A DNA stretch of 26,815 bases from a virus. The stretch is from positions 1 through 26,815 of IMG/VR virus record IMGVR_UViG_3300017781_004250. One strand, 5' to 3'. This document shows positions 3,778 through 23,770 of this stretch, one piece after another. The position numbers and the translations under genes are program-made. Each line of letters starts with the position of its first letter. Position 1 is the first letter of the stretch. The notes under the pieces are model-generated. The model had not been told where the DNA came from. It worked only from the letters and a program-made list of their open reading frames with translations, and did not search any database.

Positions 3778-3790
3778 AATCTATATTATT

Positions 3791-4591: not shown

Positions 4592-4607
4592 AGTACATAT
4601 TTAACAG

Positions 4608-4615: not shown

Positions 4616-4623
4616 GATATAAA

Positions 4624-7411: not shown

Positions 7412-7898
7412 AGTCCACCTGTTCACACTGCCTTGATATGTCTTTTACAAAGTAGGCACACATTGGTTTTGGCCCATTATTCAATGGCACTGCTAACATC
7501 TGTCCCGACTTTATTTTTGGAAAGTACCATTTGACTTCAGAGTAGATATCAACTACGTCGATGGGATAAAAATCAGGCTTAGGGCTAGACAACGGGTTGA
7601 ATGTAAAAGCGTCAAACCCCCTGTCGTTTAAACTAGTTATAGGAAGGACGTGCATCTCAGATTGTCCTGCTTCCCCTATCAACATTTTCCAGTCAAGGGG
7701 CATTTTAATTTTGTGTGGACCGATCTCCAACACTGCCGCAGGTGCATTAAAACTTTCGAGAAATATCAGTGGAATGTAAAAGAAGTCTGGGTTGGCAGGA
7801 TCAGAATTATCTAAAACTGCAAATCTTAAATTTTCATCAACCCATTCGGGTATCTTTTCCAATGCGTAGGTTCTATTTTCTAATGTAAGGATTTTCAT
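7395..7898 (-). CDS. Conserved hypothetical protein next to UvsW
   Basis: A 167-residue protein with no enzyme motif. Notable stretches are FLESFNAPAAVLEIGPHKI, PITSLNDRGFDAFTFNPL and VKWYFPKIKSGQMLAVPL. This pattern matches an unnamed protein I associate with T4-like marine phages, so it is probably a core gene of that group. It begins within the last codons of uvsW (26-base overlap) and overlaps the next small gene. Position between UvsW and the gp62-like gene suggests replication or transcription control, but there is no direct evidence. No signal peptide or membrane helix is visible. Confidence 0.8.
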   Translation of the reverse strand: MKILTLENRTYALEKIPEWVDENLRFAVLDNSDPANPDFFYIPLIFLESFNAPAAVLEIGPHKIKMPLDWKMLIGEAGQSEMHVLPITSLNDRGFDAFTFNPLSSPKPDFYPIDVVDIYSEVKWYFPKIKSGQMLAVPLNNGPKPMCAYFVKDISRQCEQVDYGSVW

Positions 7899-10757: not shown

Positions 10758-11234
10758 ATGAAAAAAAGTAAAAGTAAAAAAGTAAATGCTCGGAAACAAC
10801 TAAAAGTCAAATTGGAGAATACTCTAACTAGACACAAAAACGTTGTGGGATTCAAACCCACACAACAGCAAGTATACCAATGGTTCAGAGTAATAAACAG
10901 AGGCTTATTCAACAGTAGATTACCAATGGTGGAGCTACAAGTTAAAAAATTACACAAAGACTGGGGCAGATGTGTCGCCAATTGGGACAATAGGAAGACT
11001 CCAAAAGGCAAATTTGATCAGAGAGTTATACCGTATCATATAGATGTAGAGTTCTACATCGAACTACACTGTAAGTTTCCTACGTGGAAAGATTTTATAG
11101 AAACACTGGCCCACGAAATGGTACATCTTTACCAAATGACATGGCTGAAAGATCCTTATTCAAACCACAATGCAAACTTTTTTGCTTGGAAAAATAAATT
11201 TAAAAACGCAGGACTAGGTCTGACTAGGTGTTAG
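10758..11234 (+). CDS. SprT-like zinc metallopeptidase
   Basis: A 158-residue protein with the SprT-like domain. QVYQWFRVINRGLFNSRLP near the start matches the first helix of the family. The zinc site is HEMVH at 119-123 (two His ligands and the general-base Glu), with the third ligand probably H137 in HNANFFAWKNKF, a spacing typical of SprT and Spartan. The cellular relatives cut proteins crosslinked to DNA; phage members are uncharacterised. The N-terminus is highly basic, and there is no C-terminal zinc ribbon. It is the only plus-strand gene between two minus blocks, divergent from the UvsW unit across a 64-base gap, and overlaps the convergent sugar-island gene by 21 bases. Confidence 0.88.
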   Translation: MKKSKSKKVNARKQLKVKLENTLTRHKNVVGFKPTQQQVYQWFRVINRGLFNSRLPMVELQVKKLHKDWGRCVANWDNRKTPKGKFDQRVIPYHIDVEFYIELHCKFPTWKDFIETLAHEMVHLYQMTWLKDPYSNHNANFFAWKNKFKNAGLGLTRC

Positions 11235-11954
11235 AACCTTATCAAACTCAGCATAACTTATAATCTTACTATTACCTAAGTCTGTGCCGGTTTGCAAATA
11301 GTTTAAGTAGTCCGGCGGATTGTCATGCACCACCGTGTAATTGACATAAGGTCTCATCTTCAACATGTCGCGGAACTGTTTCAGCCAACCATCAAAAATT
11401 GTATCAGCATGCCTTTCGCCGTAACATTCCGTTTCTTGATAGATATTGTTCAACTGGTCTTTACCGTATTCTCTGAAATCATATCCTAACAGATATATGT
11501 TTTTGTGGCCGTGGACTCCTGCTGTCCAGAATGCCTGGTTGCCTGAGATCCAGTGTGGATTGTTTGGAATAAGATGTATCATTCCTTTCGCATGCCTTCT
11601 GTTCACTTCGAGGGAGGGAGCGTAATGTATAGTCTGGCGTCCTACTCTGTCCAAGCACATCTGTGCGGTCATTTTTGCATCGACACTGAATATAAAGTCC
11701 GGGATAAAATCTCTGTATAAAGCGTTACATCCATACGTCTGTCCTGTTGCTTTTAATTTGTTCAGATCAAAATCTTTACGTGATGGTCCATTGCCTATGC
11801 AGTATGCATTTCCTCTTGGCACTGCTTGGACTTTGTCTTCGAAGAATTTTTTTTCGTGTATGCGTTGCCCTTGACGTATAATTGTGTTCACAATGATTTC
11901 TTCACCAACGTACTTTTGCCATTCTATTTCGGCCACTTCCTTGTTTCGTGCCAT
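11214..11954 (-). CDS. DUF115/MptE-like or sialyltransferase-fold protein
   Basis: A 246-residue protein with IGNGPSRKDFDL at 53-64, then TYGCNALYRDF and FSVDAK at 89-94. A G-N-G-P-S loop followed by a N-A-x-Y and a D-x-K block recalls DUF115/MptE-like proteins and the nucleotide-sugar site of some glycosyltransferases. The middle has WISGNQAFWTAGVHGHKNIYLLGYDF, which looks like a Rossmann strand-loop. It is the last gene of the 14358-11214 run and shares a single base with the end of the KpsS-like gene (start at 11954). Context supports a part in glycan handling, possibly transfer of a sugar or sugar phosphate. The substrate is unknown and family assignment is tentative. Confidence 0.6.
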   Translation of the reverse strand: MARNKEVAEIEWQKYVGEEIIVNTIIRQGQRIHEKKFFEDKVQAVPRGNAYCIGNGPSRKDFDLNKLKATGQTYGCNALYRDFIPDFIFSVDAKMTAQMCLDRVGRQTIHYAPSLEVNRRHAKGMIHLIPNNPHWISGNQAFWTAGVHGHKNIYLLGYDFREYGKDQLNNIYQETECYGERHADTIFDGWLKQFRDMLKMRPYVNYTVVHDNPPDYLNYLQTGTDLGNSKIISYAEFDKVLTPSQT

Positions 11955-12826
11955 TATAAGTATTTCTCCTCTAACCTTTCCTTAATACGTTTCCATGGCC
12001 GTCCTTGATGTATTTCTTCTGTCCACCATTCCGTGTACGCTAACTTGTTAAGCCATTTTTGCCTGTCGGGCATTTGCGGATTGTCTATGTTGTCGAAGGA
12101 CGTGTTGCCGATATCGTAACTTAGGCTTGCCTCAGATACGTACACTGGTATTCCATGAATGGCCGCAGTGATGGCAGGATTGCTTGAATAACTTACAAGT
12201 GCCCAAGCCGACTTCAAACGTTCAGTAAGGTCTGTGTCGTCATATGTAGTGTTGTCTCTTTTAGGGCCTACTATTTTTACATCTTTATATTTGCCTGTAT
12301 CGATAATGACATGATTCCTTGGATGTGGCCTTATGGTAATTGGCCTGTCTGTGTATTTTCTAATTTCGGTTATCTGTTGATCAAACCATTTCGACATGGG
12401 TGGATTGTGACGCCACTGGTGACTGTTAGTATGCTGTCCACAAACTATAATGTTTTCACCTGTCTGATGCCATGGTTTAATGGCAACCTTAAATTTTTTC
12501 CAACGTTCCCCGTCGACAACTTCATTGGCAAAGTCGGCTTCTCTGTTTACACCGTTGATGCCAATTTTCCAAGTTTCATTTCTCTTAATACCTCCCACCT
12601 CTATAACAATTACAGGCTTGTTGTTTTTCTTGTATCGCTCCCATATATCTTTGTATCTCCGCATGCGGCCTTGCCATAACACGCTCCAGATTACTGCTAC
12701 GTCACCATTGGGTGCTTGTTTGTTCACCCAAACTTGTTCTCCAGATGCACGTAATGATTCAATAAACTTGTTGAATACTTCTTTGGAATTCAAAGGACCG
12801 TGCTCAGGCCAAATTTCTATGTTCAT
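11954..12826 (-). CDS. KpsC/KpsS-like glycosyltransferase, copy A
   Basis: A 290-residue protein resembling the capsule polysaccharide (KpsC/KpsS) type of GT-B glycosyltransferase. The C-terminal half carries YTDRPITIRPHPRN at 158-171, SAWALVSYSSNPAITAAIHG around 206-225, then IPVYV. The tail reads DNPQMPDRQKWLNKLAYTEW followed by an EI-x-x-G turn. The same set of blocks recurs in three other genes of this window (14354-15337, 16108-16923, 19432-20244). In the KpsC/S family such blocks bind the CMP-linked donor. The gene is packed between a DxD glycosyltransferase and the DUF115-like gene with one-base overlaps at both ends, so one transcript is likely. Confidence 0.7.
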   Translation of the reverse strand: MNIEIWPEHGPLNSKEVFNKFIESLRASGEQVWVNKQAPNGDVAVIWSVLWQGRMRRYKDIWERYKKNNKPVIVIEVGGIKRNETWKIGINGVNREADFANEVVDGERWKKFKVAIKPWHQTGENIIVCGQHTNSHQWRHNPPMSKWFDQQITEIRKYTDRPITIRPHPRNHVIIDTGKYKDVKIVGPKRDNTTYDDTDLTERLKSAWALVSYSSNPAITAAIHGIPVYVSEASLSYDIGNTSFDNIDNPQMPDRQKWLNKLAYTEWWTEEIHQGRPWKRIKERLEEKYL

Positions 12827-13746
12827 TAGTTGCCTTGTCTTCCTTTTGCAACCTTGCTAACAATATCTTGCTCTTGTTTCGCGTCAAATTTAATACCTCT
12901 AAATGGGTCATAGTCTTCTACGTTCTGCCAGTAGGCTTCGTTCCGTTCGCCACGAAGATCGCTCTTACTACTTTTACCTAGCACTTTCCTTTTACCTTTC
13001 ATGTGATCAACATAGCCACCTAGCACACTGTTAATGAATACATGATGCCCTTTAGCACCTGCACCTTTTCCAATGTCCACACCGTCGTTGGGTGCTATCC
13101 TTTTCACACACTGCCAAAAAACGTAACTGTCGTGCCATTCTAGTTCTTTGAATATGGTGTCTTTGACATAGAGATCTGTCCAGTACTTCATAAATTCATT
13201 TATTTTTGGGTGCCTCTTGTTGTAGCAAACCCAACCACACTCTGGATATTTTTCACCCCTTCCGAGAAAATTTACAAGTTTATCACTAGGTAGTAAAGCT
13301 GTAACGAATGCAGTTGTAATTTTCCTAAATGTGTATGTGTCTGCATCTAGCCATAGGATGTAGTCAGCATCTATTGTTTTAATAGCATGATCTACTGCAA
13401 ACGTTTTGTGAGCAAATCTAACGGCATCCCACAAGTAAGAGCCCTTTCCTTTATCACTTTTTCCTGCGTTTGGGTCTCTTCTTACCCCTCCTGGTATTTC
13501 TTTTATTTCTCCGTTGGCAACTGGATCGTCTTTGTGTTTTTGTTTAAATTTTACAAGCTCTGGGTTGGCCTCTTCGATGTTTATAAATTTTACTTTGCTG
13601 TGATTAAAATCTGGTTTTACACCTTCGTGATATGCGTATAGCACAACATCGTCAGGCCAAAATTCAACATGACTCTCTAACATCCTCTTTGCATATGCTG
13701 TCCACCTGTTTGGCGGAAAGGTTGTAACAACTGCGAGACTACTCAT
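12826..13746 (-). CDS. Glycosyltransferase with DxD motif (GT-A type)
   Basis: A 306-residue protein. YILWLDADTYTFRK around residues 129-142 contains the hydrophobic strand and DxD (D134, D136) that hold the metal and nucleotide sugar in GT-A glycosyltransferases. The N-terminus LAVVTTFPPNRWTAYAKRML and the later GWVCYNKRHPKINEFMKYW and ELEWHDSYVFWQ blocks fit a GT-A-like catalytic domain. The tail is lysine-rich. No signal peptide or membrane helix is seen, so it should act in the cytoplasm. It overlaps the methyltransferase gene upstream by eight bases and the KpsS-like gene downstream by one. Donor and acceptor sugars cannot be read from the sequence. Confidence 0.75.
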   Translation of the reverse strand: MSSLAVVTTFPPNRWTAYAKRMLESHVEFWPDDVVLYAYHEGVKPDFNHSKVKFINIEEANPELVKFKQKHKDDPVANGEIKEIPGGVRRDPNAGKSDKGKGSYLWDAVRFAHKTFAVDHAIKTIDADYILWLDADTYTFRKITTAFVTALLPSDKLVNFLGRGEKYPECGWVCYNKRHPKINEFMKYWTDLYVKDTIFKELEWHDSYVFWQCVKRIAPNDGVDIGKGAGAKGHHVFINSVLGGYVDHMKGKRKVLGKSSKSDLRGERNEAYWQNVEDYDPFRGIKFDAKQEQDIVSKVAKGRQGN

Positions 13747-14341
13747 AATTTCCTAACATGTACACACCAACACGTCTGCCTACTTTATGTTCAATTATTT
13801 GCGGAAATGTTTCCATCATCTCTCCATGGCTCCAGTCGTCCTTTATGTGTGCTTCGTATGGATTACCGTGAACTGGTTCTTGTGGGTAGTGTATGATAGG
13901 AATGCTAATAAACAAGTAGGTGGATATCCTTAATATTTGCTCAACTACTTGCACTGCATCTTCTTTCGCCATATGTTCTAAAACATCACCAGCCACCGCA
14001 ACATCAAAAGGCCCTAGTTTGTTGTAGTCTAACTTCCTCACATCTTCATTTAGTATTGTATCATATTTGGATCTTAGATCAAATTTATCAATGTAGGGCT
14101 CCCACACCTCCACACCTGTCCATCTGTGTTCACTTAATGGACCAGCGTCAATTTCCCAATTTTGTTTTAGTGTTTGGTATTTGTCTCCACCTGCTTGATA
14201 TTTGTGTTTTAGGCAATTTAAATATGCGCCTTCTCCAACACCTATGTCTAATGCGGCCTTGTGTGTAAGTTTGCCTTGCACTTTTAACTGTTCGACCCAT
14301 TCGACAATGGTTGCTTTCCCGGCTTTTTTACTATGTGGCAT
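13739..14341 (-). CDS. SAM-dependent methyltransferase (class I)
   Basis: A 200-residue class I methyltransferase. Motif I is ALDIGVGEGAYL at 30-41, the acidic strand-2 end lies in GVEVWEPYI at 76-84, and motif IV-like FDVAVAGDVLEHM spans 112-124, as in small-molecule and lipid or sugar methyltransferases. There is no DNA-methyltransferase DPPY motif, so a sugar or other surface substrate is more likely than phage DNA. ATG at 14341 lies nine bases after an exact TATAAATA box, suggesting that a late transcript begins here. The gene leads a run of four genes (methyltransferase, DxD transferase, KpsS-like, DUF115-like) with overlaps throughout. Confidence 0.8.
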   Translation of the reverse strand: MPHSKKAGKATIVEWVEQLKVQGKLTHKAALDIGVGEGAYLNCLKHKYQAGGDKYQTLKQNWEIDAGPLSEHRWTGVEVWEPYIDKFDLRSKYDTILNEDVRKLDYNKLGPFDVAVAGDVLEHMAKEDAVQVVEQILRISTYLFISIPIIHYPQEPVHGNPYEAHIKDDWSHGEMMETFPQIIEHKVGRRVGVYMLGNYE

Positions 14342-14350
14342 AATACAACC

Positions 14351-14358
14351 TATTTATA
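14351..14358 (-). promoter_or_regulatory. Late promoter-like box TATAAATA inside the sugar island
   Basis: An exact match to the T4 late promoter core on the minus strand, overlapping the stop codon of the preceding gene and ending nine bases before the ATG at 14341. With T4 spacing the RNA would start only about four bases before the ATG, so the message would be almost leaderless. That makes the site plausible but uncertain. Confidence 0.4.
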
Positions 14359-15337
14359 GACCCAACTTTGACTTGAATCTTTTATAAACTGTGCCGTCTT
14401 TTATCTCATTGATACTCCAAAGTTTATACCCGAGATCATTCACCCACTGTGTCCTGTCCGGAGTATCGGGAGTTTCTATATTGTTTAAATCTTTGTTACA
14501 AACGTCCCAACATAGTGCGAGATTGGATGTGCAGAAAGTTGGAATACCTCTTATACAACTGTCGACACTGGCTGTGGAGTTATGAGTTACAACAGCGTGT
14601 GCATTTGAAATGGCTTCTTGAAAATGGAATCTGTAATATTTTTTTTCGTCACCGACAAAATTTTTTTGTGTGTATTGAATTTCAACATCGTCGGGTAGTT
14701 CGTCCTTGCGTTCTAGAATGTTTGACACATTGTTTGGATGAGGCCGTACAATAAATTTCCTACTTGTTGCGGGTCTAACTTTTTCATATACATCTTTGAA
14801 CCAATCTATCGGATCTAGCTCGTTCATGCTCCAGTTGTCTTTAGGTTGTAGCACAAATATGATCGGATCTTCTTGGTTGGATTTCCTCCATGGTTCATAT
14901 TTTACATCAAACTTCTTCACCAACATGTCCCAACGATCGCTAGGACTGTCATTTGATAGGAAGTCGCCGTCGTTCATTGGCGTGTACAATGACACTCTGA
15001 AATGATGATCAGGTGATGTTGAAACATTACCAAAACTAGATAGGAGCCCACCGTCAAATGTTATTAGTGGAATTTTTTTTGCCCTGCAGTTGTCTGCGAG
15101 TTCTCTACGCCTACCTTTAGTGTGGTGCATCTGTTTGTCTCCACCATAACCAAACATTGCCGCCATTGGTGCAGTGGGCACCATTTCGCCTTCAACGGTT
15201 GGACCTGATCTGTTTTCATTAACTATAATTGGTTCATCCCCAGAGACCTCAATACCTTTTTTTAGATGGTAAAGCAGTTCATAACTGTTTCCACGTTTAC
15301 GATCCTTAACCGTCCTACGGAATATTTCAACTTTCAT
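14354..15337 (-). CDS. KpsC/KpsS-like glycosyltransferase, copy B
   Basis: A 327-residue member of the same family as copy A, with a longer N-terminal half. Shared blocks are RKFIVRPHPNN around 193-203, ISNAHAVVTHNSTASVDSCI around 243-262, IRGIPTFC, and the tail NNIETPDTPDRTQWVNDLGY followed by KLWSINEIKDGT. The RPHP block and the THNSTAS loop are the best-kept family signatures, so this copy looks catalytically complete. I start it at ATG 15337; a TTG one codon upstream is less likely. It overlaps the end of the FkbM gene by 11 bases. The N-terminal region (residues 1-110) is unlike that of copies A, C and D, which may mark a different acceptor. Confidence 0.7.
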   Translation of the reverse strand: MKVEIFRRTVKDRKRGNSYELLYHLKKGIEVSGDEPIIVNENRSGPTVEGEMVPTAPMAAMFGYGGDKQMHHTKGRRRELADNCRAKKIPLITFDGGLLSSFGNVSTSPDHHFRVSLYTPMNDGDFLSNDSPSDRWDMLVKKFDVKYEPWRKSNQEDPIIFVLQPKDNWSMNELDPIDWFKDVYEKVRPATSRKFIVRPHPNNVSNILERKDELPDDVEIQYTQKNFVGDEKKYYRFHFQEAISNAHAVVTHNSTASVDSCIRGIPTFCTSNLALCWDVCNKDLNNIETPDTPDRTQWVNDLGYKLWSINEIKDGTVYKRFKSKLGL

Positions 15338-16115
15338 CAATGTCCTTCCTAAAGAATATTAGTTCCATCATTTTTTTTGATCTTTTCCTGTTTATGTAGA
15401 TATTATACTTTGTTCGATGCAAATTGTAAAGCTCCCTGACTTTATCAAATGCCTCTTCAATCGTCATGCCAACGGTCAACTCTATCTCTGTTACCCAGTA
15501 CTTCACGTCTAAGTTTGCTATTTCTTTACCAACATCGTGCCAAAGTCCTTCTACATCTGTTTTCAGGATGTCAACACTGTCCCACTCCAAATCTGCCATT
15601 ATTGTGGTGATATTTTTGCATTCTACTTCAATGGTCTCTAAACTGTTACCTTGGTCAATCAATGAATAACTGGCTGGAATTGGTAAGTCATTCCATTTAC
15701 CTTTGTGTCCATCCGGTGGATAAAAAGTAAAAAAGCCGTTAACAGGGCCATAAGCAACAGGATAAAATTTAAGACAGCGATTGATTATCTTTTGACTATG
15801 TTTGCCACCTTTTCTTATGCTGGCAAAATAGTGATATCCACCCTGCTGTAATATTCTTTTTATATAAAATTTGGTTGCAGGAGTCGGGTCAAACATACGC
15901 ACATCAAGGGAGTTATTATCAACACATATCAACTTCTCAAAGTGGGCGTCTGCACCTATGCCGAAGCTCAACACCCTTTTAGAATTTTTTACATGATATT
16001 CAGGCACATGGTAGTTCCTATACAGTTTGAAATCCTGGGTCTCAAACAATTCTTCTTCGAACCTTCTGATTTGTCCGATTATATTTGCATCGTCTGGTTT
16101 AGGTATATCAGCCAT
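15327..16115 (-). CDS. FkbM-type methyltransferase, copy 1
   Basis: A 262-residue protein. VLSFGIGADAHFEK at 48-60 is a variant SAM-binding loop, MFDPTPATKFY at 74-84 is the strand-2 acidic region, and VDILKTDVEGLW at 181-192 is the hallmark IKxDVEG motif of FkbM-family methyltransferases. The family usually O-methylates sugars or polyketides. It differs from the second FkbM gene here (21002-21628) in having a longer N-terminus and a degenerate motif I. It lies between KpsS-like copies B and C with short overlaps, so the methylated product is probably the sugar these enzymes build. No membrane segment is seen. Confidence 0.8.
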   Translation of the reverse strand: MADIPKPDDANIIGQIRRFEEELFETQDFKLYRNYHVPEYHVKNSKRVLSFGIGADAHFEKLICVDNNSLDVRMFDPTPATKFYIKRILQQGGYHYFASIRKGGKHSQKIINRCLKFYPVAYGPVNGFFTFYPPDGHKGKWNDLPIPASYSLIDQGNSLETIEVECKNITTIMADLEWDSVDILKTDVEGLWHDVGKEIANLDVKYWVTEIELTVGMTIEEAFDKVRELYNLHRTKYNIYINRKRSKKMMELIFFRKDIDES

Positions 16116-16923
16116 TTAACATTCTCCATGCTGTGCCGTCTGCCATTTCTTTCAAACTCCAGTTGTTGTAGGCTAGGCTTGAAAACAGTGCAACCCTATC
16201 ACCATAAAGTGGTGTTTCGATTTTTGCAAAATCTTTTTCAGATATCGGTGCCGCCGCACTATTCTTAGGGTCACATAGCACCGGTACACCATTTGCCAGA
16301 CTGGCAATCATGGTATTGGAGTTGTATGTCACTGTGGCATAGTAATCTTTCCAATTAATTTTATCTTTGTGTGTTGTTGGTTTATCTACCTTCACAGTGG
16401 CACCCACATGATCCATTTCTACTGTAGGATTGTAAGGCTTTTCACGAACATCTATCTGTCTGTCTGTATTTTCTTTCAGTGTCTTAAGTGTGTCATCTAA
16501 CCAGCCTTTTGCATTGAAGAAGTTTGCGATCGCATTAGTAGGTGGCAGGACCAATATTTTTCCACCTTGCTTGTTCCATGGTTTAATGTCCTGTTTGAAA
16601 TGTTTTTCATACCTATCTGTTGGTCTCTCTTGTAAAATGTTCTGGCAGTGTTTGTTTTTTGTTATCCTTAGCCAATGTGGGGTATTGTGGGCGTTAGTAA
16701 AGTACCCATGATCCATAAAATAAAAATCCTTGTCTTCCTTCTCGCACCATTTGTAAATCTCACCTGAACCGGCCAGTATTCCATACATTGTTAAATTTTC
16801 TTCTGGTAAGGCTACTAGATCTCGGAATTGATAAATTTTATTTGCTCCTGGAGTACCTTTTACAAAAGCATCAACATATCTTTGTGTACGTGGTTTGGTC
16901 GTGTTTATTCCTGCTATGTTCAT
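16108..16923 (-). CDS. KpsC/KpsS-like glycosyltransferase, copy C (altered motif)
   Basis: A 271-residue relative of copies A, B and D. The N-terminal half includes DFYFMDHGYFTNAHNTPHWL (66-85). The family block around 152-164 reads NTDRQIDVREKPY, so the usual R-P-H-P has become R-E-K-P; a true family histidine is lost. The rest is kept: VTYNSNTMIASLANGVPVLC (198-217), KIETPLYGDRVALFSSLAYN and the WSLKEMADGTAW ending. The nearest relative by eye is copy D, which has R-H-K-P at this place. The changed residue may alter donor use or activity. The gene overlaps the oxygenase gene by four bases and the FkbM gene by eight. Confidence 0.68.
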   Translation of the reverse strand: MNIAGINTTKPRTQRYVDAFVKGTPGANKIYQFRDLVALPEENLTMYGILAGSGEIYKWCEKEDKDFYFMDHGYFTNAHNTPHWLRITKNKHCQNILQERPTDRYEKHFKQDIKPWNKQGGKILVLPPTNAIANFFNAKGWLDDTLKTLKENTDRQIDVREKPYNPTVEMDHVGATVKVDKPTTHKDKINWKDYYATVTYNSNTMIASLANGVPVLCDPKNSAAAPISEKDFAKIETPLYGDRVALFSSLAYNNWSLKEMADGTAWRMLNG

Positions 16924-17675
16924 TTCCTAAGTTCTTTTACTTCAAACATTTTTTGTTTTGACGCCCTATTGAATTCTGCAATGATGTTGACGCTTCTTCT
17001 ATGTAACTGTGCATTTTGCCTAGCAGAAACGCTGTGTACATTTTTTGTTGAGTTGTTACAAAAAGCAACTAGTGTGTTAGGTTTGTATGGTACAGTGTTT
17101 ACTATTGCACCAGCTTTGTCGCCAACCGCTCGCCCACCATTTTTATTGACCTCGTGTATCTCATCATTTGTTTTATGTATGCGGAACTCACCACCTGTAC
17201 TTTGATCATCCGCATACGGCATGTAAAGTAATAATGCATAGATCTCTCGAGGATTGTCAATATGAGGAGTTCGGGAACTAAAGTCGATTGGTTTATGCAT
17301 CACTGTCTGGCAGTCAGTGCCAATCCAGTCACCACCTTTATCCCAACCACGTGGACTTAGAGTGTTTTCTAAATTTGGCACATGAGGCATAAGCTCGCCA
17401 AAGGCTTCTTTCATTTCTTTATAGAAAGCTACAGAGGTATGATACTCTGTAAATTCTTTCCATATACTGGAGACTTTTCCTGGTTTAAGCATTTCGTCTG
17501 CTTTAAGTCTGTAGCATATGCCCGAGTCAAATGGTTCTGTGGCTAACAGTTGTTCTTTGGGCCATTTCTTTTCAAGATCGTCATATACATTCTGTGGCAA
17601 TGCATCTTCTATTATAAAGTATGGATAAGGTTCAAGCACTAATTCGGGAGTTTTCTGTAGCACGGAAAGGTTCAT
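16920..17675 (-). CDS. 2-oxoglutarate/Fe(II)-dependent oxygenase
   Basis: A 251-residue oxygenase of the prolyl-4-hydroxylase-like 2OG-Fe(II) group. The iron triad is H138 and D140 in TPHIDNPREIYALLLYMP, and H214 in NSTKNVHSVSAR. The 2-oxoglutarate anchor is an arginine at 226 or 227 in HRRSVNIIAEF. TGGEFRIH at 160-167 lies between them, as in the family. Such enzymes hydroxylate peptides, small molecules or sugars; similar genes are common in marine T4-like phages, without a known substrate. Its position among glycosyltransferases suggests modification of a glycan or its carrier. It overlaps KpsS-like copy C (ATGA-type overlap) and the GT61 gene. Confidence 0.85.
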   Translation of the reverse strand: MNLSVLQKTPELVLEPYPYFIIEDALPQNVYDDLEKKWPKEQLLATEPFDSGICYRLKADEMLKPGKVSSIWKEFTEYHTSVAFYKEMKEAFGELMPHVPNLENTLSPRGWDKGGDWIGTDCQTVMHKPIDFSSRTPHIDNPREIYALLLYMPYADDQSTGGEFRIHKTNDEIHEVNKNGGRAVGDKAGAIVNTVPYKPNTLVAFCNNSTKNVHSVSARQNAQLHRRSVNIIAEFNRASKQKMFEVKELRK

Positions 17676-18760
17676 TCTAGGTGCTCCATTATATCAGGTA
17701 TGTTGATTTTGAAATTAATCATGTCGCTGAATCTTTTTACTCCTTCTAATTTTTTTCCTTTATCTCTTGGTATTTCTACAACATCGGCTAGATAAAGTTT
17801 ATGGTCTAAGTTTAGATTGTGTGATAACAAGGGATAGACTTTCTTGTGTACCATGTTCCTATCTTGTATTTCTATAACTTTTGTTCCTGGTTGACACCAT
17901 AACAAATTGGTCATTCCTGCACCGTGTGCCGCCAACACGTGTGATGCTTCTGCAAATGTTTTCATTTGATCTTCAATACTTAAATTTTCTAATGTCACAG
18001 TTTCCCAACCTTTAAGTTTTAAAAGCAATTCGTCGGAGTTGATCATTCTTCTAGTTTTTGCTCCGGGTCGTAGCACTACAATTTTCCGATGTGGTTTCAC
18101 GCCTTTCAAATTATTAAGACCTTTGAAGTGTCTTAGCCATGGTGCCAGCGGTGGCACAATTATTCCGTCTTTAGAGTTACTCATGCTTGGGACAATCAAA
18201 TGTTTAAATTGCCATGTTTCTCCATGCGGCATAAAAACTATTTTTACATCAGGAAATAATGCCTTACAAACTTTCTCAAAATATGGACTCTTATTAGGAA
18301 CAATATAGCAAAATCTTGCAAAGTTTGTTGACCACCTTTTCTCTATCAGTCTAAATTTAGATATGACATCAATCCATACATGCCAAGGATTATGCTTGGT
18401 ATCGTCATCAATCGGAAGCCAGACATAGGTGTGACTTTCGTTAAAATTTTGTGTCACTGGAGGTAACTCCAGATCTACAGTATCACTCCATTCCGTCCAC
18501 ATCTTGTGACTCTTGCCAGGCTTGTGCCTACGTTTGTGGGTTAACTTCCATACATATTCCGTGATAAGTTTGTTTTCTCTTGTCAGTAACAACGGGCAAG
18601 TATGTACTCTACATTCATGGAACTCCGCTACAAATGTTGGTAAACTTGTAAAGTGAGGGTCAATGGACTCATGATAAGGCACAGTATAGTTGTACTCTGG
18701 GTCAACCATCTCCCAACGGTCGAGGAAATACTTCAGTGAGTTAATGTTTTTGACTGACAT
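17672..18760 (-). CDS. GT61-family glycosyltransferase (DUF563)
   Basis: A 362-residue protein with the GT61 signature HVLAAHGAGMTNLLWC at about 274-289, followed by PGTKVIEIQDRN. The preceding KIVVLRPGAKTRRMINSDEL is the conserved arginine-rich block of the family. GT61 enzymes transfer xylose, arabinose or GlcNAc in known cases; the sugar here is unknown. A longer frame to 18859 exists, but it begins with GTG and would run through the promoter and into the start of the divergent gene, so ATG at 18760 is the better start. It leads the minus-strand half of the island and is followed by the oxygenase with a four-base overlap. Confidence 0.82.
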   Translation of the reverse strand: MSVKNINSLKYFLDRWEMVDPEYNYTVPYHESIDPHFTSLPTFVAEFHECRVHTCPLLLTRENKLITEYVWKLTHKRRHKPGKSHKMWTEWSDTVDLELPPVTQNFNESHTYVWLPIDDDTKHNPWHVWIDVISKFRLIEKRWSTNFARFCYIVPNKSPYFEKVCKALFPDVKIVFMPHGETWQFKHLIVPSMSNSKDGIIVPPLAPWLRHFKGLNNLKGVKPHRKIVVLRPGAKTRRMINSDELLLKLKGWETVTLENLSIEDQMKTFAEASHVLAAHGAGMTNLLWCQPGTKVIEIQDRNMVHKKVYPLLSHNLNLDHKLYLADVVEIPRDKGKKLEGVKRFSDMINFKINIPDIMEHLE

Positions 18761-18783
18761 TTTATTAATAATTATGTTATAAT
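18754..18783 (+). promoter_or_regulatory. Sigma70-like promoter for plus-strand sugar genes
   Basis: CTGACA (18754-18759), an 18-base spacer, and an exact TATAAT (18778-18783) preceded by TGT, which forms an extended -10. The predicted start is near 18790, only two bases before the ATG at 18792, so the message would be nearly leaderless. The 31-base gap is shared with the divergent GT61 gene. Confidence 0.55.
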
Positions 18784-18791
18784 ACACTACT

Positions 18792-19457
18792 ATGATATTA
18801 TTTTCAAATGGATGCAGTTTTCTTACCACTCGTCCCAAGGACGGCGTTGACACATTCACCTCACAAATACTAGCAAAAAATTACGGAATGGATTTAGCAA
18901 ATTTGGCCATGGGTGGTAGAGGCAATGACAGGATAAGTTTCAGCACCAAGGTCTGGTTTGAACAGAATGGTAATGAAGATAAATTTGCAGTGATAGGCTG
19001 GTCCAGTTCGAATCGTAACGACTACTGTACAAACGATGGGCACAAGGCAGGTAGAATTAGGGGAACTAGCCTCACATGGAGGACATGGAAGACTTTGGAC
19101 AATGTCAGTTTCATAAGGAGTCACAAAGGATATGATATAGATTACAATGCCACCATGGGTTTCTTAGATAATGTCTTTGACCTACAGAATTATTTTGAGC
19201 GGAGACGTATTCCATACGTCATGTACAATTCGCTACCAAATGATTTTTATCATAAAGGTGTCACAGACTTTAAAGTTATAAAGGAAGCGATCAACATGGA
19301 TAGGTTTTTCAGTCCGGCTGTGAGCCAATATGAATTTATTGTTGATAAAGGATTGCTGGTCAGTCCAAATGACCCACACCCATCGCAAGAAGGTCATCAA
19401 CAATGGGCACAACAACTAAAGGGCTTCATAGATGCTAACAATCTACGCACCATTTAA
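18792..19457 (+). CDS. SGNH-like hydrolase/esterase, copy 1
   Basis: A 221-residue protein with the blocks of a phage SGNH-type hydrolase: SNGCSF at 5-10 (S9 as candidate nucleophile), NLAMGGRGNDRI at 37-48 (Gly and Asn of the oxyanion hole), and NDPHPSQEGHQQWA with D194 and H196 as the other triad members. SGNH enzymes commonly add or remove O-acetyl groups on sugars. A second copy with the same block order lies at 20241-21005. It is the first gene of the plus-strand half of the island and overlaps the next gene by 26 bases. No signal peptide is seen. Confidence 0.72.
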   Translation: MILFSNGCSFLTTRPKDGVDTFTSQILAKNYGMDLANLAMGGRGNDRISFSTKVWFEQNGNEDKFAVIGWSSSNRNDYCTNDGHKAGRIRGTSLTWRTWKTLDNVSFIRSHKGYDIDYNATMGFLDNVFDLQNYFERRRIPYVMYNSLPNDFYHKGVTDFKVIKEAINMDRFFSPAVSQYEFIVDKGLLVSPNDPHPSQEGHQQWAQQLKGFIDANNLRTI

Positions 19458-20244
19458 CAATAAAAAAAGTAAAGCATGGGAAGTGTTCGACGGGGTCGAG
19501 AAATCTTGGCCGGATCAAATATCAAAATTAGATAATGCAATTGAAACAGATCCTGTAGGTAACAGTATGTTTTGGGGATTCGTAAACAATAATTTGGAAA
19601 TGGTCAAGAAATTGGAAGCACGTAACCACAACTACTGGTTTACGGACACGCCTTACTTTGGCAGATTTGACAACAGTAATTTAAAACCTAACAATCATTT
19701 TTGGCGTGTGTGTAAGAATGCAATACATGTTCCATACATCAAAGACTGCAAAGCAGATAGGTTTGAAAAATTTGGAATTAAAATAAAGGCGCCTGCGTTT
19801 GCTGGCAAGTACGTATTGATTTGTCCTAGTTCAGATGGCATAAATGCTTACCTGGATCAACCAGACTGGACAAATGAAACAATAGAAAAAATTAAAAGAT
19901 ATACTGACAGACCTATCAAACTTCGACACAAGCCTAGGGGCAGGGGTACATCAGGACCGAGTGAGGCAAAGGTACCCCTATCCGAGGACTTAAAAGAAGC
20001 GTGGTGTGTGGTAACAAGCTGTTCAATATCAGCAGTGGAGGCCATGTGTGAGGGTGTGCCTGTGTTCTGCCACGATAAAAGTTTTGCAACGGATGTGGCA
20101 AACACAGAACTTGCTGACATAGAGAATCCATACTATGGTGGACCGGAACCGTGGTTGTACAGCCTGGCGTATCAACAGTTTACACCCGAGGAATTGATGG
20201 ATGGCACGGCAGTTGAAATCTTGCTAGACAAAGGACTGTTATGA
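19432..20244 (+). CDS. KpsC/KpsS-like glycosyltransferase, copy D
   Basis: A 270-residue family member on the opposite strand from copies A-C. It has YTDRPIKLRHKPRG at 157-170 (RPHP replaced by R-H-K-P), VVTSCSISAVEAMCEGVPVF at 193-212, and the tail LADIENPYYGGPEPWLYSLA. Two cysteines flank the serine loop. The N-terminal half (HNYWFTDTPYFGRFDN, then PNNHFWRVCKN) pairs with DFYFMDHGYF and HWLRITKN of copy C, so C and D are probably the closest pair. ATG at 19432 lies inside the preceding SGNH-like gene, and its stop overlaps the next ATG as ATGA. It is thus enclosed between the two SGNH-like genes. Confidence 0.68.
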   Translation: MLTIYAPFNNKKSKAWEVFDGVEKSWPDQISKLDNAIETDPVGNSMFWGFVNNNLEMVKKLEARNHNYWFTDTPYFGRFDNSNLKPNNHFWRVCKNAIHVPYIKDCKADRFEKFGIKIKAPAFAGKYVLICPSSDGINAYLDQPDWTNETIEKIKRYTDRPIKLRHKPRGRGTSGPSEAKVPLSEDLKEAWCVVTSCSISAVEAMCEGVPVFCHDKSFATDVANTELADIENPYYGGPEPWLYSLAYQQFTPEELMDGTAVEILLDKGLL

Positions 20245-21005
20245 AAAAATTAGTTCACTTTGGTTGTTCTTTCGCTGTTGGCAATGCAGTTCCTACTTAC
20301 ATACCAGGTATGGATTCTGGAGCCTACATACATCAGGTAGCAAGAAGAAGGAAACTAGAAAAAAAATACAAAATAAAGATAGGACTACCTACCAATTGTG
20401 GAAAAATACTGGCGAGAGCTTTACAGTTGGAATATAAAATGATAGCAGAAAATGGTGGTAGTAACGAAAGAATTTTTAGAAATATGTTACAAACGGATTT
20501 GGACAACTCAATCGTTTTGATAGGATTGACAAGTTACAACAGGCGTGAAGGCCTAACCACCAGTCAGGACAGCAGTCATTGGCACACATGGAAAATTGTA
20601 GGGCCTGAAGAGCGTGCGGGTTACAAGGATTTAAAATTTGATCCATGGGTGAACAAAGACAAAAGAGAATATTATCCTGCAATAGAGGAAGAGGGACAGA
20701 TCAAGACATCAATGCAAATACTTTACATGCAAAATTATTTGAAGGCAAACGGTGTACCATACATTATGTACAATGCCCTTTACAATGGATTCGACGATCC
20801 CTTAACAGATGAGTGTAAAAAATTACTGCGGATGGTAGATCAAACGAGATATTACAAACTGCAAGGCAGTTTCAATGAAACACAGCACGGATGGTGCCTC
20901 TCTAGAAAGATGGTGGTATCCGAATTAGACGAACATCCAAACACGATGGGTCAAACTGCATGGGCGGATCAGCTGATGCCATTAGTCCAAAAAATTATAC
21001 AATGA
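20241..21005 (+). CDS. SGNH-like hydrolase/esterase, copy 2
   Basis: A 254-residue relative of the 18792 gene: VHFGCSFAVG with S10 as candidate nucleophile, ENGGSNERIFRN at 70-81 as the oxyanion block, a shared middle (YLKANGVPYIMYNALYNGF; compare RRRIPYVMYNSLPNDF in copy 1), and LDEHPNTMGQTAWA with D230 and H232. The insert at 20-50 is rich in Lys and Arg and is absent from copy 1. The pair probably arose by duplication with divergence, perhaps for two acceptor positions. The ATG overlaps the stop of KpsS-like copy D, and its own stop overlaps the next ATG (ATGA), so translation is coupled along the run. Confidence 0.72.
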   Translation: MKKLVHFGCSFAVGNAVPTYIPGMDSGAYIHQVARRRKLEKKYKIKIGLPTNCGKILARALQLEYKMIAENGGSNERIFRNMLQTDLDNSIVLIGLTSYNRREGLTTSQDSSHWHTWKIVGPEERAGYKDLKFDPWVNKDKREYYPAIEEEGQIKTSMQILYMQNYLKANGVPYIMYNALYNGFDDPLTDECKKLLRMVDQTRYYKLQGSFNETQHGWCLSRKMVVSELDEHPNTMGQTAWADQLMPLVQKIIQ

Positions 21006-21628
21006 ATATAGAAAAGATTAACGGATTCTGGGTGCCTAGCAATGACGTACATGTGGAAGACTGGAAGGCAGGAAAACCTTTCACACAAAATAAATGTCTG
21101 TTGCAGTTTCAAAATTATTGCAAGAAACACAATAAAAAATTTAACCACATATTGGACATTGGTGCATGGGTCGGAACATGGAGCATGGCCATGAACCAGT
21201 ACTGTGGGCGAGTTATTGCCTTTGAACCGGAAGCGGTACATTATGAATGTCTAGTCAAAAATGTCAGTGACGATATAGAGACTCATCAACTGGCCGTTGG
21301 TGCAGAAAGTAAAATGATATCTCTATCACAGGACGACTTTACACAGAGTAAAAGGGTACTAGGCGAAGGAGCCATACCAATGGTAACAATTGATAGTTTG
21401 GGTCTTGATGATGTTGATATGATCAAGATTGATGTTGAGGGTTATGAAATGGAAGTATTGAAAGGAGCAACAAAGACATTAGAGAACGTCAAGTACCTTA
21501 TGATTGAATTAAACAATAACACTAAAAAATATGGCAGTAGTAACATAGATGTAGAAAATTATATCAGTTCACTAGGCTTTAAGGGATTGATGGATCACTG
21601 GCCGGACAAAGTTTTCTATCGTCCATAA
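21002..21628 (+). CDS. FkbM-type methyltransferase, copy 2
   Basis: A 208-residue methyltransferase. LDIGAWVGTWS at 51-61 is motif I, VIAFEPE at 71-77 carries the ribose-binding acidic residue, and MIKIDVEGYEMEVLKGA at 140-156 is the FkbM hallmark. It is a clean, complete copy, unlike the longer one at 15327. I start it at ATG 21002, which overlaps the previous stop as ATGA; an in-frame ATG 14 codons upstream (20960) lies well inside the previous gene and is less likely. The likely product is an O-methylated sugar. It is followed by a 19-base gap before the epimerase gene. Confidence 0.87.
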   Translation: MNIEKINGFWVPSNDVHVEDWKAGKPFTQNKCLLQFQNYCKKHNKKFNHILDIGAWVGTWSMAMNQYCGRVIAFEPEAVHYECLVKNVSDDIETHQLAVGAESKMISLSQDDFTQSKRVLGEGAIPMVTIDSLGLDDVDMIKIDVEGYEMEVLKGATKTLENVKYLMIELNNNTKKYGSSNIDVENYISSLGFKGLMDHWPDKVFYRP

Positions 21629-21647: not shown

Positions 21648-22652
21648 ATGAAGATTTTTATAACAGGGGTGGCAGGTTTTTTAGGATCACACCTAGCAGA
21701 CTTGATGATATCAGAAGGTCACACTGTTGCTGGCAATGACAACATGATTGGTGGTTATACGGACAATGTGCCACAGAATGTAGAGTTTCATCAAGTTGAT
21801 TGTTGTGATTTGGAAAACATGACAAAGGCAATGCAAGGTTGTGATATAGTGTACCACACTGCCGCTACAGCCTACGAGGGACTTTCTGTTTTCTCTCCAG
21901 TGCTGGTAACAAGGAATATTTTTGAAGCTTCCGTGACTACAATTACTGCGGCTATTAGGAACAAAGTAAAACGTATTGTGTATTGTTCTAGCATGGCGAG
22001 ATATGGTCATCATGAACAGATGCCATACAAGGAGGATTACGAATGTCGTCCACAGGATCCGTATGGAATTGCAAAAAAGGCAGGAGAGGATGTATTACGG
22101 AATCTATGTGATACGCACGGAGTGGAGTATGTCATTGCTGTTCCTCACAACATAGTTGGACCAAGACAGAAGTACGATGATCCATTCAGGAATGTGATGT
22201 CCATAATGTTAAACAGGATGTTACAAGGTAAACAACCAATCATATACGGAGATGGCGAACAACAAAGATGCTTCAGCTATATTGATGATTGTTTGTATTG
22301 TTTAAACGCACTAGCATTTCAAAACAACGTGGTTGGTGAAGTAATTAACATAGGACCGGACGAAGAACCTATAACAATAAACGAATTAGCGGAAGCCTGT
22401 GCTAATGAGACAGGACTTAACTTAGAGCCTATTCACCACAAGGATAGACCTAAAGAAGTAAAACTAGCTGTGTGTTCGTCGGACAAAGCAAGAGATTTAT
22501 TAGGTTACAGCACGGCGACAAACATGAGACAGTCTGTGAAAAAGACCGCCGAATACATAAGGACCAGAGGCACGAAGAAGTTCCAATATCATTTACCTTT
22601 GGAAATAATAAATGATCAGACCCCAGATACCTGGAAGAAGAAATTGATATGA
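21648..22652 (+). CDS. NAD-dependent sugar-nucleotide epimerase/dehydratase (extended SDR)
   Basis: A 334-residue extended short-chain dehydrogenase. The NAD-binding loop is GVAGFLGSH at 7-15 (GxxGxxG), YHTAAT lies at 69-74, the catalytic serine is in YCSSMARYG at 112-120, and the catalytic pair Y139 and K143 lie in DPYGIAKKAGE. A C-terminal substrate domain includes RCFSYIDDC and EVINIGPDEEPITI. These are the features of UDP-glucose 4-epimerase-like and related nucleotide-sugar enzymes; substrate is not decided. It is the clearest evidence that the island makes its own activated sugar. The 19-base gap in front contains TTAAATA; the stop overlaps the next ATG. Confidence 0.88.
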   Translation: MKIFITGVAGFLGSHLADLMISEGHTVAGNDNMIGGYTDNVPQNVEFHQVDCCDLENMTKAMQGCDIVYHTAATAYEGLSVFSPVLVTRNIFEASVTTITAAIRNKVKRIVYCSSMARYGHHEQMPYKEDYECRPQDPYGIAKKAGEDVLRNLCDTHGVEYVIAVPHNIVGPRQKYDDPFRNVMSIMLNRMLQGKQPIIYGDGEQQRCFSYIDDCLYCLNALAFQNNVVGEVINIGPDEEPITINELAEACANETGLNLEPIHHKDRPKEVKLAVCSSDKARDLLGYSTATNMRQSVKKTAEYIRTRGTKKFQYHLPLEIINDQTPDTWKKKLI

Positions 22653-23359
22653 TAAGTTTCTGCTGTCCATCGAGGGGCAGACCCGAACTAGCAAAGAGAT
22701 TAATTGATACTGCCACAGAAACACAAAAGGGTGATACAGAATTTCTATTCTATTTAAATGACGATGATGAAAAACTAGAACAATACAAAGACTTACTTGA
22801 TGAAAAACATTATACTATAGGCCCAAATCAATCAACATGTTACAGCTGGAATTTAATGAGTGTAAAGGCAACTAACGATGTTGTTATGCTTATGGGTGAT
22901 GATGTACAAGTAAAGACCCATCACTGGGACCAATTAATAGTGGATGAAATAAACAAATATGATGATAGGATTTTAATGGTTGTGCCAAGCGACGGCAGAG
23001 TCAAAGGAACCAAACAACTTACTAACAAGACGAAACTATGGCCCGACAAGCCATTGCCAGCACCACATTTCGCAGTCCATAGTAACTGGGTAAACACTTT
23101 AGGATATCTTGCCCCTGCATTTTTTTGGCATTGGCACGTGGACTCGTACACACAAAAAGTAGCACGTAAAATTAACAGATGTCTCTATCTTCCTACGGTA
23201 GAATTCAAAGCCAAAAAGATACTAGACGATAATGCTGGTAAGCAAATACGGAAAAATTTTAATATTCGTGAAAGAGACAACTTTGTTTGGACAAAAGTTA
23301 GTGACAGGCATTTACAGTCTGATGTCAGCTCTTTACAGAATTTTATTGATGCTTTTTAG
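22649..23359 (+). CDS. GT2-like glycosyltransferase
   Basis: A 236-residue protein opening with ISFCCPSRGRPELAKRLI, the nucleotide-binding start usual in GT2-type transferases, followed by FYLNDDDE at 34-41. VVMLMGDDVQV at 78-88 holds the D-D pair in the place of the DxD metal motif. The region after 140 (FAVHSNWVNTLGYLAPAFFW) probably forms the acceptor side. The family is GT-A and would act in the cytoplasm. It is the last gene of the plus-strand run; its last 27 bases overlap the end of the convergent 145-residue gene. No obvious terminator is seen beyond it. Confidence 0.75.
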   Translation: MISFCCPSRGRPELAKRLIDTATETQKGDTEFLFYLNDDDEKLEQYKDLLDEKHYTIGPNQSTCYSWNLMSVKATNDVVMLMGDDVQVKTHHWDQLIVDEINKYDDRILMVVPSDGRVKGTKQLTNKTKLWPDKPLPAPHFAVHSNWVNTLGYLAPAFFWHWHVDSYTQKVARKINRCLYLPTVEFKAKKILDDNAGKQIRKNFNIRERDNFVWTKVSDRHLQSDVSSLQNFIDAF

Positions 23360-23770
23360 CAAACGGTTGTAAGTTTCTTCATTGATATCTAGTTGTACCA
23401 AAGGACTTCTTATGTATTTCCTTTTTGTGTGTACAAACTTAATGTTTTTTGATTTTGTAATTAGGAAAGTGTTTGCTGTGTATTTTATTTGTTTACCGTT
23501 AAGATGAACGTAAGCGGCAGTGCCGTCACTTCTTTCCCTAAAGAACCATAGGCATAATATATTCCTGTTGAAATCTATATCTGCAAAACTTTCTTTCAAT
23601 TCCGCTTTTGTATCATGCTGTTCGCAAAACTTCTTCCAGTGTTGGTGATTAATATTGTTTTGGTTCTCATACAGGCTATCGTACTCTCTACTGTCAACAA
23701 TATCACCAGCACATATATGTTCTACAGGTTGATCATGGTAATGATGGGTTTTAAGTTTATTCCAGATCAT
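23333..23770 (-). CDS. Hypothetical protein, 145 residues
   Basis: A protein of unrecognised family. It is rich in Asn, Lys, His and aromatic residues, with NILCLWFFRERSDGTAAYVH in the middle and a C-terminal LVQLDINEETYNRLLKSINK helix. I start it at ATG 23770, which shares its first base with the stop of the GT8-like gene (TAATG); a longer frame to 23806 exists but would overlap that gene by 37 bases. It converges on the GT2-like gene with a 27-base overlap. Position at the tail of a HAD and GT8-like run suggests sugar metabolism only by association. Confidence 0.7.
   Translation of the reverse strand: MIWNKLKTHHYHDQPVEHICAGDIVDSREYDSLYENQNNINHQHWKKFCEQHDTKAELKESFADIDFNRNILCLWFFRERSDGTAAYVHLNGKQIKYTANTFLITKSKNIKFVHTKRKYIRSPLVQLDINEETYNRLLKSINKIL

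Follow-up and report, generated by a model that had tools for sequence, protein, structure and literature searches.

Gene content of the glycosylation block

The window, which denotes here the whole stretch of 26,815 nucleotides of viral DNA that was analysed (IMG/VR record IMGVR_UViG_3300017781_004250), carries four related open reading frames, copies A to D, at the positions claimed in the initial annotation. The interval proposed there, 11954-20244, does hold all four, but it is only part of a longer glycosylation block that runs from 11214 to about 25064, is flanked by UvsW and UvsX and is colinear among related contigs. The features of this block are listed below.

11214..11954, minus strand: GT42 (CMP-sialyltransferase)-like gene; profile match to CstI/CstII in the PDB (4e-6) that covers the CMP-binding N-terminus; PHROG sialyltransferase at 0.0065
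11954..12826, minus strand: copy A, 290 aa, KpsC/KpsS-superfamily GT-B; base E76, Q131-H-x-x-S135, R166-P-H-P169, SSN loop
12826..13746, minus strand: GTA1, GT-A-like, with LDADTY; relatives adjoin family members in Mosig and in podovirus MW202713
13739..14341, minus strand: class I methyltransferase (PF08241), present in few relatives
14354..15340, minus strand: copy B, 328 aa; base D95, QPxDN, RPHP, HNST loop; AlphaFold2 model
15327..16115, minus strand: FkbM-type methyltransferase (PF05050, just under the cut-off)
16108..16923, minus strand: copy C, 271 aa; base D71, PPTNAI, R-E-K-P, YNSN loop
16920..17675, minus strand: 2OG-Fe(II) oxygenase (PF13640, 1.2e-5, just under the cut-off)
17672..18859, minus strand: GT61 glycosyltransferase (PF04577, 3e-23)
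18792..19457, plus strand: SGNH-like/DUF6071 protein paired with D (4e-5, under the cut-off)
19432..20244, plus strand: copy D, 270 aa; base D72, PSSxGI, R165-x-K167-P168 followed by RGxGTSGP, SCSI loop; AlphaFold2 model
20241..21005, plus strand: second SGNH-like/DUF6071 protein paired with D (0.0015, under the cut-off)
20960..21628, plus strand: FkbM methyltransferase (PF05050, 4.5e-18)
21648..22652, plus strand: NAD-dependent sugar epimerase/dehydratase (PF01370, 1e-47)
22649..23359, plus strand: GT2-like (GT-A) protein (weak, 0.017)
23770..24444, minus strand: GTA3, a GT8/GT24-like glycosyltransferase with phage relatives next to genes of CMP-sugar type in four cultured lineages

Pairwise blastp comparisons of copies A to D gave E-values of 1e-6 to 1e-18 (search space 1.5e9), so that their likeness is far beyond chance. 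Their alignment contains 17 invariant columns, including the TxR...R..P block, a serine, G-x-P, I..P, L-x-Y and E...G. The C-terminal signature described initially is common to the four copies but somewhat looser than stated, with LGY in B, EM in C and EL in D; the motif states had been read correctly (RPHP in A and B, REKP in C, RHKP in D).

The GT42-like gene and copy A share a stop/start overlap. Like D, a fifth paralogue has a DUF6071 protein as its partner; it occurs on 7 of 22 related contigs. Relatives of GTA3 adjoin family members in Mosig and CcrColossus and a GT29-like gene in Stenotrophomonas phage DLP6; another lies near KdsA/KdsB in Synechococcus phage S-SCSM2R, and one also adjoins a family-bearing cassette in a phage-plasmid. 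A test of whether the S-SCSM2R genes adjoining GTA3 are unrecognised members of the family showed that they are not.

Fold and distant homology

None of the four copies gave a match above cut-off in Pfam, PHROGs or NCBIfam searches, and the 69-row family profile found nothing among PDB sequences at E up to 1. Modelled with AlphaFold2, D (pLDDT 90.5) and B (pLDDT 87) match the KpsC-type two-domain GT-B-like fold with a Foldseek probability of 1.00 and a TM-score of about 0.5. Against the PDB, E. coli KpsC heads the matches of the D model (E 7e-7), followed by WbbB and KrkA, and the B model finds T. dismutans KpsC (E 7e-8), with KrkA and WbbB likewise at the top. As TM-scores against these matches reach only 0.4-0.53 and the rmsd is large, fold membership rests on the Foldseek E-values and probability together with the profile match.

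In HHalign comparisons, the pooled family profile scored 96% against KpsS and 95% against KpsC, while 11 control families stayed at or below 1% and profiles with shuffled columns scored no more than 16, compared with 73. The strength comes from pooling: profiles of single orthologue groups were mostly insignificant, with less than 2% for each of A, C and D, and 72% for B. In the alignment, the D/E of the family falls on the base Glu of the KpsC EDGF motif, and RxKP falls on KxHP. No window copy passes the PF05159 gathering cut-off, the link to that family being a distant profile match. Models and profiles thus support a KpsC/KpsS-like fold and distant homology of A to D. No unrelated fold emerged and the link did not disappear on profile comparison; neither test refuted the KpsC/KpsS likeness put forward in the initial annotation.

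A weak match to the putative glycosyltransferase family DUF6716 (PF20471) covers the C-terminal half of 16 of the 69 family members; a bacterial relative, L209, passes its cut-off and all window copies fall below it.

Active-site signatures

Roles of the motif residues in retaining Kdo transferases have been described (PMC12887879, PMC10148158). In the KpsC/WbbB/KrkA group H, Q and D are essential, H227A being inactive and D193 the nucleophile; in the WbbB GT99 and KrkA GT140 modules, the HP element and the serine contact the CMP phosphate (PMC12887879).

The acid at the general-base position (KpsC Glu66) is Glu in 78/78 A orthologues and Asp in 83/83 B, 65/65 C and 103/103 D orthologues, and the phosphate-binding serine is invariant across all four groups. 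R, H and P of the (K/R)xHP element are present in all 161 orthologues of A and B (His in 78/78 and 83/83, respectively). The element is intact in no C or D orthologue, since Lys replaces His in 168 of 168 sequences (65/65 and 103/103). The His of RHKP in D was considered as the catalytic His shifted by one residue. We rejected this, as it occupies the variable x position (H/E/L/Q/S/K/R in orthologues), with K and P invariant.

The QxxxD motif with its Asp nucleophile is absent from A (QHxxS), C (PPTNAI) and D (PSSxGI). In A, where Ser stands for the Asp, Q, S and H are invariant over the 78 orthologues. All 83 B orthologues have QPxDN, with an invariant Gln, Asp at +3, one residue early, and Asn at +4, in the register suggested by the sequence. 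Because A, C and D lack the Asp nucleophile and in B it appears displaced, the window copies are not strict GT107/GT99 members. QxxxD is intact in the fifth paralogue, and graded states thus occur in one phage group: QxxxD with HP in the fifth copy, QxxDN with HP in B, QxxxS with HP in A and none of these in C and D.

Compared with KpsC and KpsS (GT107, PF05159), the retaining beta-Kdo transferases of group 2 capsules and best PDB match of both models, the family shares the GT-B-like fold, the base carboxylate in E/D-x-G-[FY], the (K/R)xHP element, the serine loop and a full-length profile alignment. It differs in scoring below the PF05159 cut-off, in the lost (A, C, D) or altered (B) QxxxD, in KP for HP in C and D, in not keeping KpsC Asp67, which follows the base Glu, and in its shorter, single-module proteins. 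The GT99 module of WbbB and the GT140 module of KrkA, retaining Kdo transferases also matched by the D and B models, depend on the Asp of QxxxD as their nucleophile (PMC12887879); in the window copies that residue is missing or displaced. Bacterial polysialyltransferases of GT38 and other HP-motif sialyltransferases combine a D/E-D/E-G base, HP and Ser/Thr without an Asp nucleophile (PMC5517516). The residues of A come closest to this inverting set; B has all of these residues plus an extra Asp, and C and D lack HP. No solved sialyltransferase is among the Foldseek matches listed for D and B, which Kdo transferases lead, and there was no sequence match to GT38.

Phylogeny and selection

The exchange of His for Lys corresponds to one change on the tree. 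The RxKP clade is supported at 98/92 and retains an SH-aLRT of 81 when the motif columns are removed. It also holds Caulobacter and Pelagibacter phage genes, a Bradyrhizobium phage-plasmid gene and one bacterial gene, so C and D did not arise from A or B by recent duplication. Values of dN/dS are 0.054 for A, 0.035 for B, 0.062 for C and 0.048 for D. The copies are ancient paralogues, each strongly preserved by purifying selection. The initial annotation had spoken of drift of a key motif and of repeated duplication with change at that site; the first description is wrong and the second finds no support, each state being fixed within its orthologue group at dN/dS of 0.035-0.062 and the H/K difference being a single old split. 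Chance, an error of assembly or the neutral divergence of recent duplicates can practically be dismissed: nothing was found in their support, and they are refuted by orthologues on hundreds of contigs (154 for B, 333 for D), the colinear order, the fixed signatures and the low dN/dS.

The fixation of the H and K states among orthologues suggests a division of labour rather than decay. C and D might still be pseudo-enzymes that bind sugar or keep A and B together as a complex, as they lack the H, Q and D essential in KpsC, WbbB and KrkA (PMC12887879), and conserved non-catalytic binding partners would equally suit low dN/dS and fixed residues. We regard this as unlikely. Four residues of the pocket, the base Asp, Arg, Lys and Ser, show 100% conservation (65 C and 103 D sequences), which disfavours a non-catalytic role, dN/dS is low in both (0.062 and 0.048) and the Lys substitution is fixed, not variable. 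Moreover, the bacterial RxKP gene L208 lies on a 3.7-kb sequence that shows no RxHP gene, so a partnership with A/B may not be general.

The RxKP branch may, as we tentatively propose, represent a new family of glycosyltransferases descended from retaining Kdo transferases: the nucleophile, the carboxylate-binding Gln and the His of HP would have been lost together, with mechanism and donor switched and intermediates kept side by side. The origin of retaining Kdo transferases themselves has been called unclear (PMC10148158).

Genomic setting and likely acceptor

At least four family copies occur on all 22 of the larger contigs of this marine phage group. In its UvsX, the window comes closest to jumbo phages (Phosso and Atu_ph07, for example) and not to pelagiphages; no psbA was found, and a default cyanophage or pelagiphage origin was rejected. 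A genome-contig search with the D alignment matched only phage contigs in MAGs, and one with the podovirus member found no relative.

The block of the window lies among replication genes, not virion genes, so that the case for a virion acceptor is argued from other phages. The Pelagibacter phage isolate Mosig has two family members. In Caulobacter phage CcrColossus, family members directly follow the tail genes; in podovirus MW202713, one lies beside the terminase, portal and capsid genes; in the Bradyrhizobium phage-plasmid, the family is flanked by a collagen-like fibre/portal gene and the gene for the tail tube. This fibre and the 2OG oxygenase of the window suggested collagen as a general glycan acceptor, an idea rejected as the marine records contain no collagen repeats.

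Sequences and models agree on a common fold in which a base-type carboxylate stands where a strand of the N-domain ends, as Glu66 does in KpsC; this residue, the Arg and Pro of (K/R)xHP and the serine of the phosphate loop are all invariant. A to D are probably GT-B paralogues of the KpsC/KpsS/WbbB/KrkA superfamily, each with a fixed signature, that act within a glycan-assembly block as serial transferases for a virion-protein glycan. Inside the cytoplasm of an infected cell, each of the four would bind its nucleotide-activated donor and transfer the sugar in turn, by a soluble, phage-encoded pathway whose donor, product and acceptor we infer. With Gln and RPHP, A and B most likely take CMP-activated acidic sugars (Kdo or a nonulosonic acid). 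Having no correctly placed Asp nucleophile, they probably do not follow a double-displacement (retaining) route, unless B uses its displaced Asp. In C and D, Lys in place of His and the loss of Gln and Asp suggest a changed donor or leaving-group chemistry. CMP-Kdo is a plausible ligand of A/B and a doubtful one of C/D. The related records are fragments; no gene for CMP-sugar-type donor synthesis (PF02348) was found on them, and the donor could come from the host. Methyltransferases, the epimerase and SGNH proteins encoded nearby would trim the product, whose most likely acceptor is the virion proteins of the phage itself.

The transferases could alternatively remodel a host surface polysaccharide (LPS O-chain or capsule), for instance excluding other phages, and leave the virion undecorated. 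KpsC and KpsS act on capsule lipids, the block includes epimerase and GT61 genes, and glycosyltransferases of pelagic myophage hypervariable regions, likewise found several together in marine phages, have been proposed to alter the host O-chain: the available text of that report treats the genes as O-chain AMGs, with GT8 the most represented family, and describes no KpsC-like family that we could find (PMC7029224). We consider such remodelling possible but on balance doubtful. The island proteins include no flippase, polymerase or lipid-carrier transferase (Pfam) and have no membrane-spanning segments, and family members sit in the virion gene modules of other phage lineages. A polysaccharide pyruvyl transferase was also looked for and none was found.

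The position among replication genes, and T4 alpha-glucosyltransferase as a weaker Foldseek match of B (1.2e-4, TM 0.30), would fit glycosylation of the phage DNA (hypermodification) as by T4 glucosyltransferases. This is very improbable, since Kdo transferases outrank AGT for B (AGT at rank 26) and the first 50 matches of D contain no AGT; 16 related records, which are fragments, hold no gene of the thymidylate synthase/dCMP hydroxymethylase family (PF00303), and methyltransferases and SGNH proteins fit glycan tailoring better.

Significance

The initial annotation suspected that a family-level description was lacking, and we found none in the literature searched, nor a Pfam, PHROGs or NCBIfam model that covers A to D; present libraries thus give the window copies no name. 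Retaining Kdo transferases are a mechanistic oddity that works via a covalent Asp-sugar intermediate, and five paralogues ranging from canonical QxxxD and HP to full replacement form a natural series in which a change of donor or mechanism can be tested. The recurrence of the family in virion modules of unrelated phages makes CMP-sugar-type virion glycosylation a concrete, testable hypothesis. Our data point to a marine group of large phages that maintains a conserved sugar-transfer block with four ancient relatives of KpsC/KpsS, in a pattern that suggests a division of labour among them.

Four paralogues with fixed active-site states

The KpsC/KpsS-like genes of the window (copies A to D) lie in a colinear glycosylation block between UvsW and UvsX:

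11214 to about 25064: glycosylation block
11954-12826, - strand: A
14354-15340, - strand: B
16108-16923, - strand: C
19432-20244, + strand: D
23770-24444, - strand: GTA3, GT8/GT24-like gene

All four open reading frames were located where the initial annotation had placed them, and their mutual relatedness was borne out by blastp (E values of 1e-6 to 1e-18, search space 1.5e9) and by 17 invariant columns. Their motifs had also been read correctly: RPHP in A and B, REKP in C and RHKP in D. The proposed drift of this motif does not hold, as the active-site state is fixed inside each of groups A, B, C and D. An exact-peptide-pattern search of viral contigs yielded 20 (A), 154 (B), 17 (C) and 333 (D) confirmed stretches. 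A profile search of every ORF in the fetched loci then recovered 356 distinct full-length sequences; clustered at 60% identity they make 12 groups, and four large ones match A to D.

Active-site states and pairwise dN/dS medians of the four large groups
Group (n); base; QxxxD position; (K/R)xHP position; dN/dS
A (78); E 78/78; QHxxS, Q and S 78/78; RxHP, H 78/78; 0.054
B (83); D 83/83; QPxDN, Q, D and N 83/83; H 83/83; 0.035
C (65); D 65/65; PPTNAI; K 65/65; 0.062
D (103); D 103/103; PSSxGI; K 103/103; 0.048

The x of RxKP varies in group D and is mostly H, so the histidine of RHKP does not correspond to that of the motif. Seven sequences make up F, a small group resembling C, which carries KNKG. 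The four functions are almost certainly conserved separately.

Origin of the histidine/lysine split

In a maximum-likelihood tree (62 rows, KpsS outgroups), all RxKP-type sequences fall in one clade (support 98/92), with a single change between H and K. The split survives removal of the two motif blocks (SH-aLRT 81). Long branches make the deeper RxHP branching order unreliable. The RxKP clade also takes in both Mosig genes, one Bradyrhizobium phage-plasmid gene and a bacterial gene (L208). Two adjoining genes of Caulobacter phage CcrColossus lie on opposite sides of the split, RQKP inside the RxKP clade and RAHP outside it. Histidine versus lysine is thus one old split.

Among 22 larger related contigs, four family matches were found on 15 and five on 7; the nearest cultured UvsX proteins (68-69% identity) belong to the jumbo myoviruses Sinorhizobium Phosso (469 kb) and Agrobacterium Atu_ph07 (490 kb), so these records are probably fragments, and per-genome copy numbers and absences are lower bounds. 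On three contigs (G016-G018) five first-look candidates became four scored matches, and fifth copies may be undercounted. The largest relative (196.6 kb) keeps the window's genes in identical order from UvsW to UvsX, and most of the tabulated contigs show a recognisable block. That relative also holds an open frame of 4584 codons (G007:C1:87519-101270). The UvsX kinship to 469-490 kb phages (window 25735-26787 and 428-9342) suggests that the phages of this abundant marine group may be jumbo-sized; no cultured representative of it was found. Contigs of the group binned in bacterial MAGs named Verrucomicrobia, Flavobacterium and Rickettsiales (L201, L202, L203) are probably misbinned.

On seven contigs (L245-L251) a fifth member lies apart from the block (for example L246:2835-3737, - strand). 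It has the full canonical Q-K-V-G-D (Q-N-P-G-D in L247) with RPHP and, at the loci inspected, adjoins an SGNH-like gene (DUF6071 in L249), as D does. A bacterial relative adjoining sulfotransferase-like genes (L209; QVPGD, RPHP) and a gene of podovirus MW202713 (QVPQD, RPHP) are canonical too, and this set is therefore likely ancestral; A, B and C/D likely depart from it. The podovirus gene (L200, 4792-5610) bears no annotation in its record. Four of 399 Pseudomonadota genomes gave family matches: two have a clear member apiece, one a partial match, and one contains misbinned phage contigs. The family is thus mainly viral within the data searched.

Fold and probable membership of the KpsC/KpsS superfamily

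AF2 models were computed from 64-row alignments of window and fetched loci for D (pLDDT 90.5, pTM 0.86) and B (pLDDT 87.0, pTM 0.87). In Foldseek searches of the PDB, KpsC, WbbB or KrkA filled ranks 1-14 for D (E 7e-7 to 1e-3); for B, KpsC ranked first (7e-8), and the top ten included KrkA and WbbB alongside GT-B enzymes of other kinds (UDP-GlcNAc 2-epimerases and PimA, for example). Moderate TM-scores (0.38-0.53) went with a high rmsd, which would follow from a different angle between the two domains; the fold call rests on E-value and probability. A BFVD search with D returned CcrColossus, uncultured phage proteins and several Tetraselmis virus 1 'capsule polysaccharide biosynthesis' proteins. 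At least four structural relatives (A0A2P0VNK4, A0A2P0VP54, A0A2P0VP74, A0A2P0VP72) are encoded by this algal giant virus, which is another multi-copy case.

With KpsS and KpsC modules drawn from Pseudomonadota genomes, HHalign linked the pooled family to KpsS at 96% (score 73) and KpsC at 95% (score 64). Eleven other gene families from the same phages reached at most 1% with the KpsS and KpsC modules, and column-shuffled family alignments scored at most 16; single orthologue groups were weak, the strong figures coming from the pooled profile. The alignment pairs the family D/E with the first Glu of KpsC EDGF and KpsS EEGY, RxKP with KxHP, and the serine loop with VNS; its QxxxD register is shifted by one or two and was taken instead from the multiple alignment and the fifth copy. 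The KpsC/KpsS likeness first noted is thereby upheld, and the family very probably belongs to this superfamily, A to D being a variant of it outside strict GT107 or GT99.

Predicted chemistry and donor

In KpsC the base is Glu66 and the nucleophile Asp160 of QxxxD (PMC10148158). In KrkA, binding of the CMP phosphate falls to the HP histidine and a pair of serines; the H227A mutant lacks activity, and modelling puts the QxxxD Gln on the sugar carboxylate (PMC12887879). For the inverting polysialyltransferase, the proposed mechanism relies on base Glu153 and His291 and needs no Asp nucleophile (PMC5517516). By analogy, the residues of the fifth copy resemble those of a retaining Kdo-type enzyme, and A looks like an acidic-sugar transferase lacking the nucleophile. 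B retains Gln and His, its Asp standing one residue early. Of the whole set, C and D have only the base, Arg, Pro and Ser, Lys replacing His; because Lys could still neutralise the leaving phosphate, we read them as altered rather than dead, and probably catalytic.

A GT42-like gene matching CstI/CstII profiles (4e-6) adjoins A. GTA3 is rare among cultured phages (18 records). Its relatives adjoin family members in Caulobacter phages and Mosig, lie near KdsB and KdsA in Synechococcus phage S-SCSM2R, adjoin a GT29-like gene in Stenotrophomonas phage DLP6, and share a cassette with a family member in the Bradyrhizobium phage-plasmid. GTA3 (L269, L270, L198, L199, L204) thus has CMP-sugar-type neighbours (KdsA/KdsB, GT29-like, KpsC-like) in four lineages and sits in a family-bearing cassette in a phage-plasmid, which by guilt by association points to CMP-sugar chemistry. 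A search of 26 records turned up no CMP-sugar synthetase. On balance, A and B more likely than not use CMP-sugars.

Candidate acceptors

The family cassette follows tail genes in CcrColossus, and the MW202713 gene has terminase, portal and capsid genes as neighbours. A collagen-like fibre/portal gene and the tail tube gene flank the cassette of the Bradyrhizobium phage-plasmid. The record of that replicon (L204; NZ_CP126028.1, 1114-13554) calls it a 'plasmid' of Bradyrhizobium elkanii; it is a phage-plasmid with a glycosyltransferase/methyltransferase cassette after the collagen-like tail-fibre gene. No membrane-spanning segment was found in any island protein of the window. Taken with the virion-module contexts, this makes a soluble pathway that modifies virion proteins more likely than LPS remodelling, although the window block itself sits among replication genes. 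Glycosylation of the host surface is the less likely reading, and DNA as acceptor is highly improbable. Mycobacteriophages are known to glycosylate their virions (Freeman et al. 2023, as cited in PMC12619734), and we tentatively place the acceptor on the virion. A to D are real, old, conserved and unnamed.
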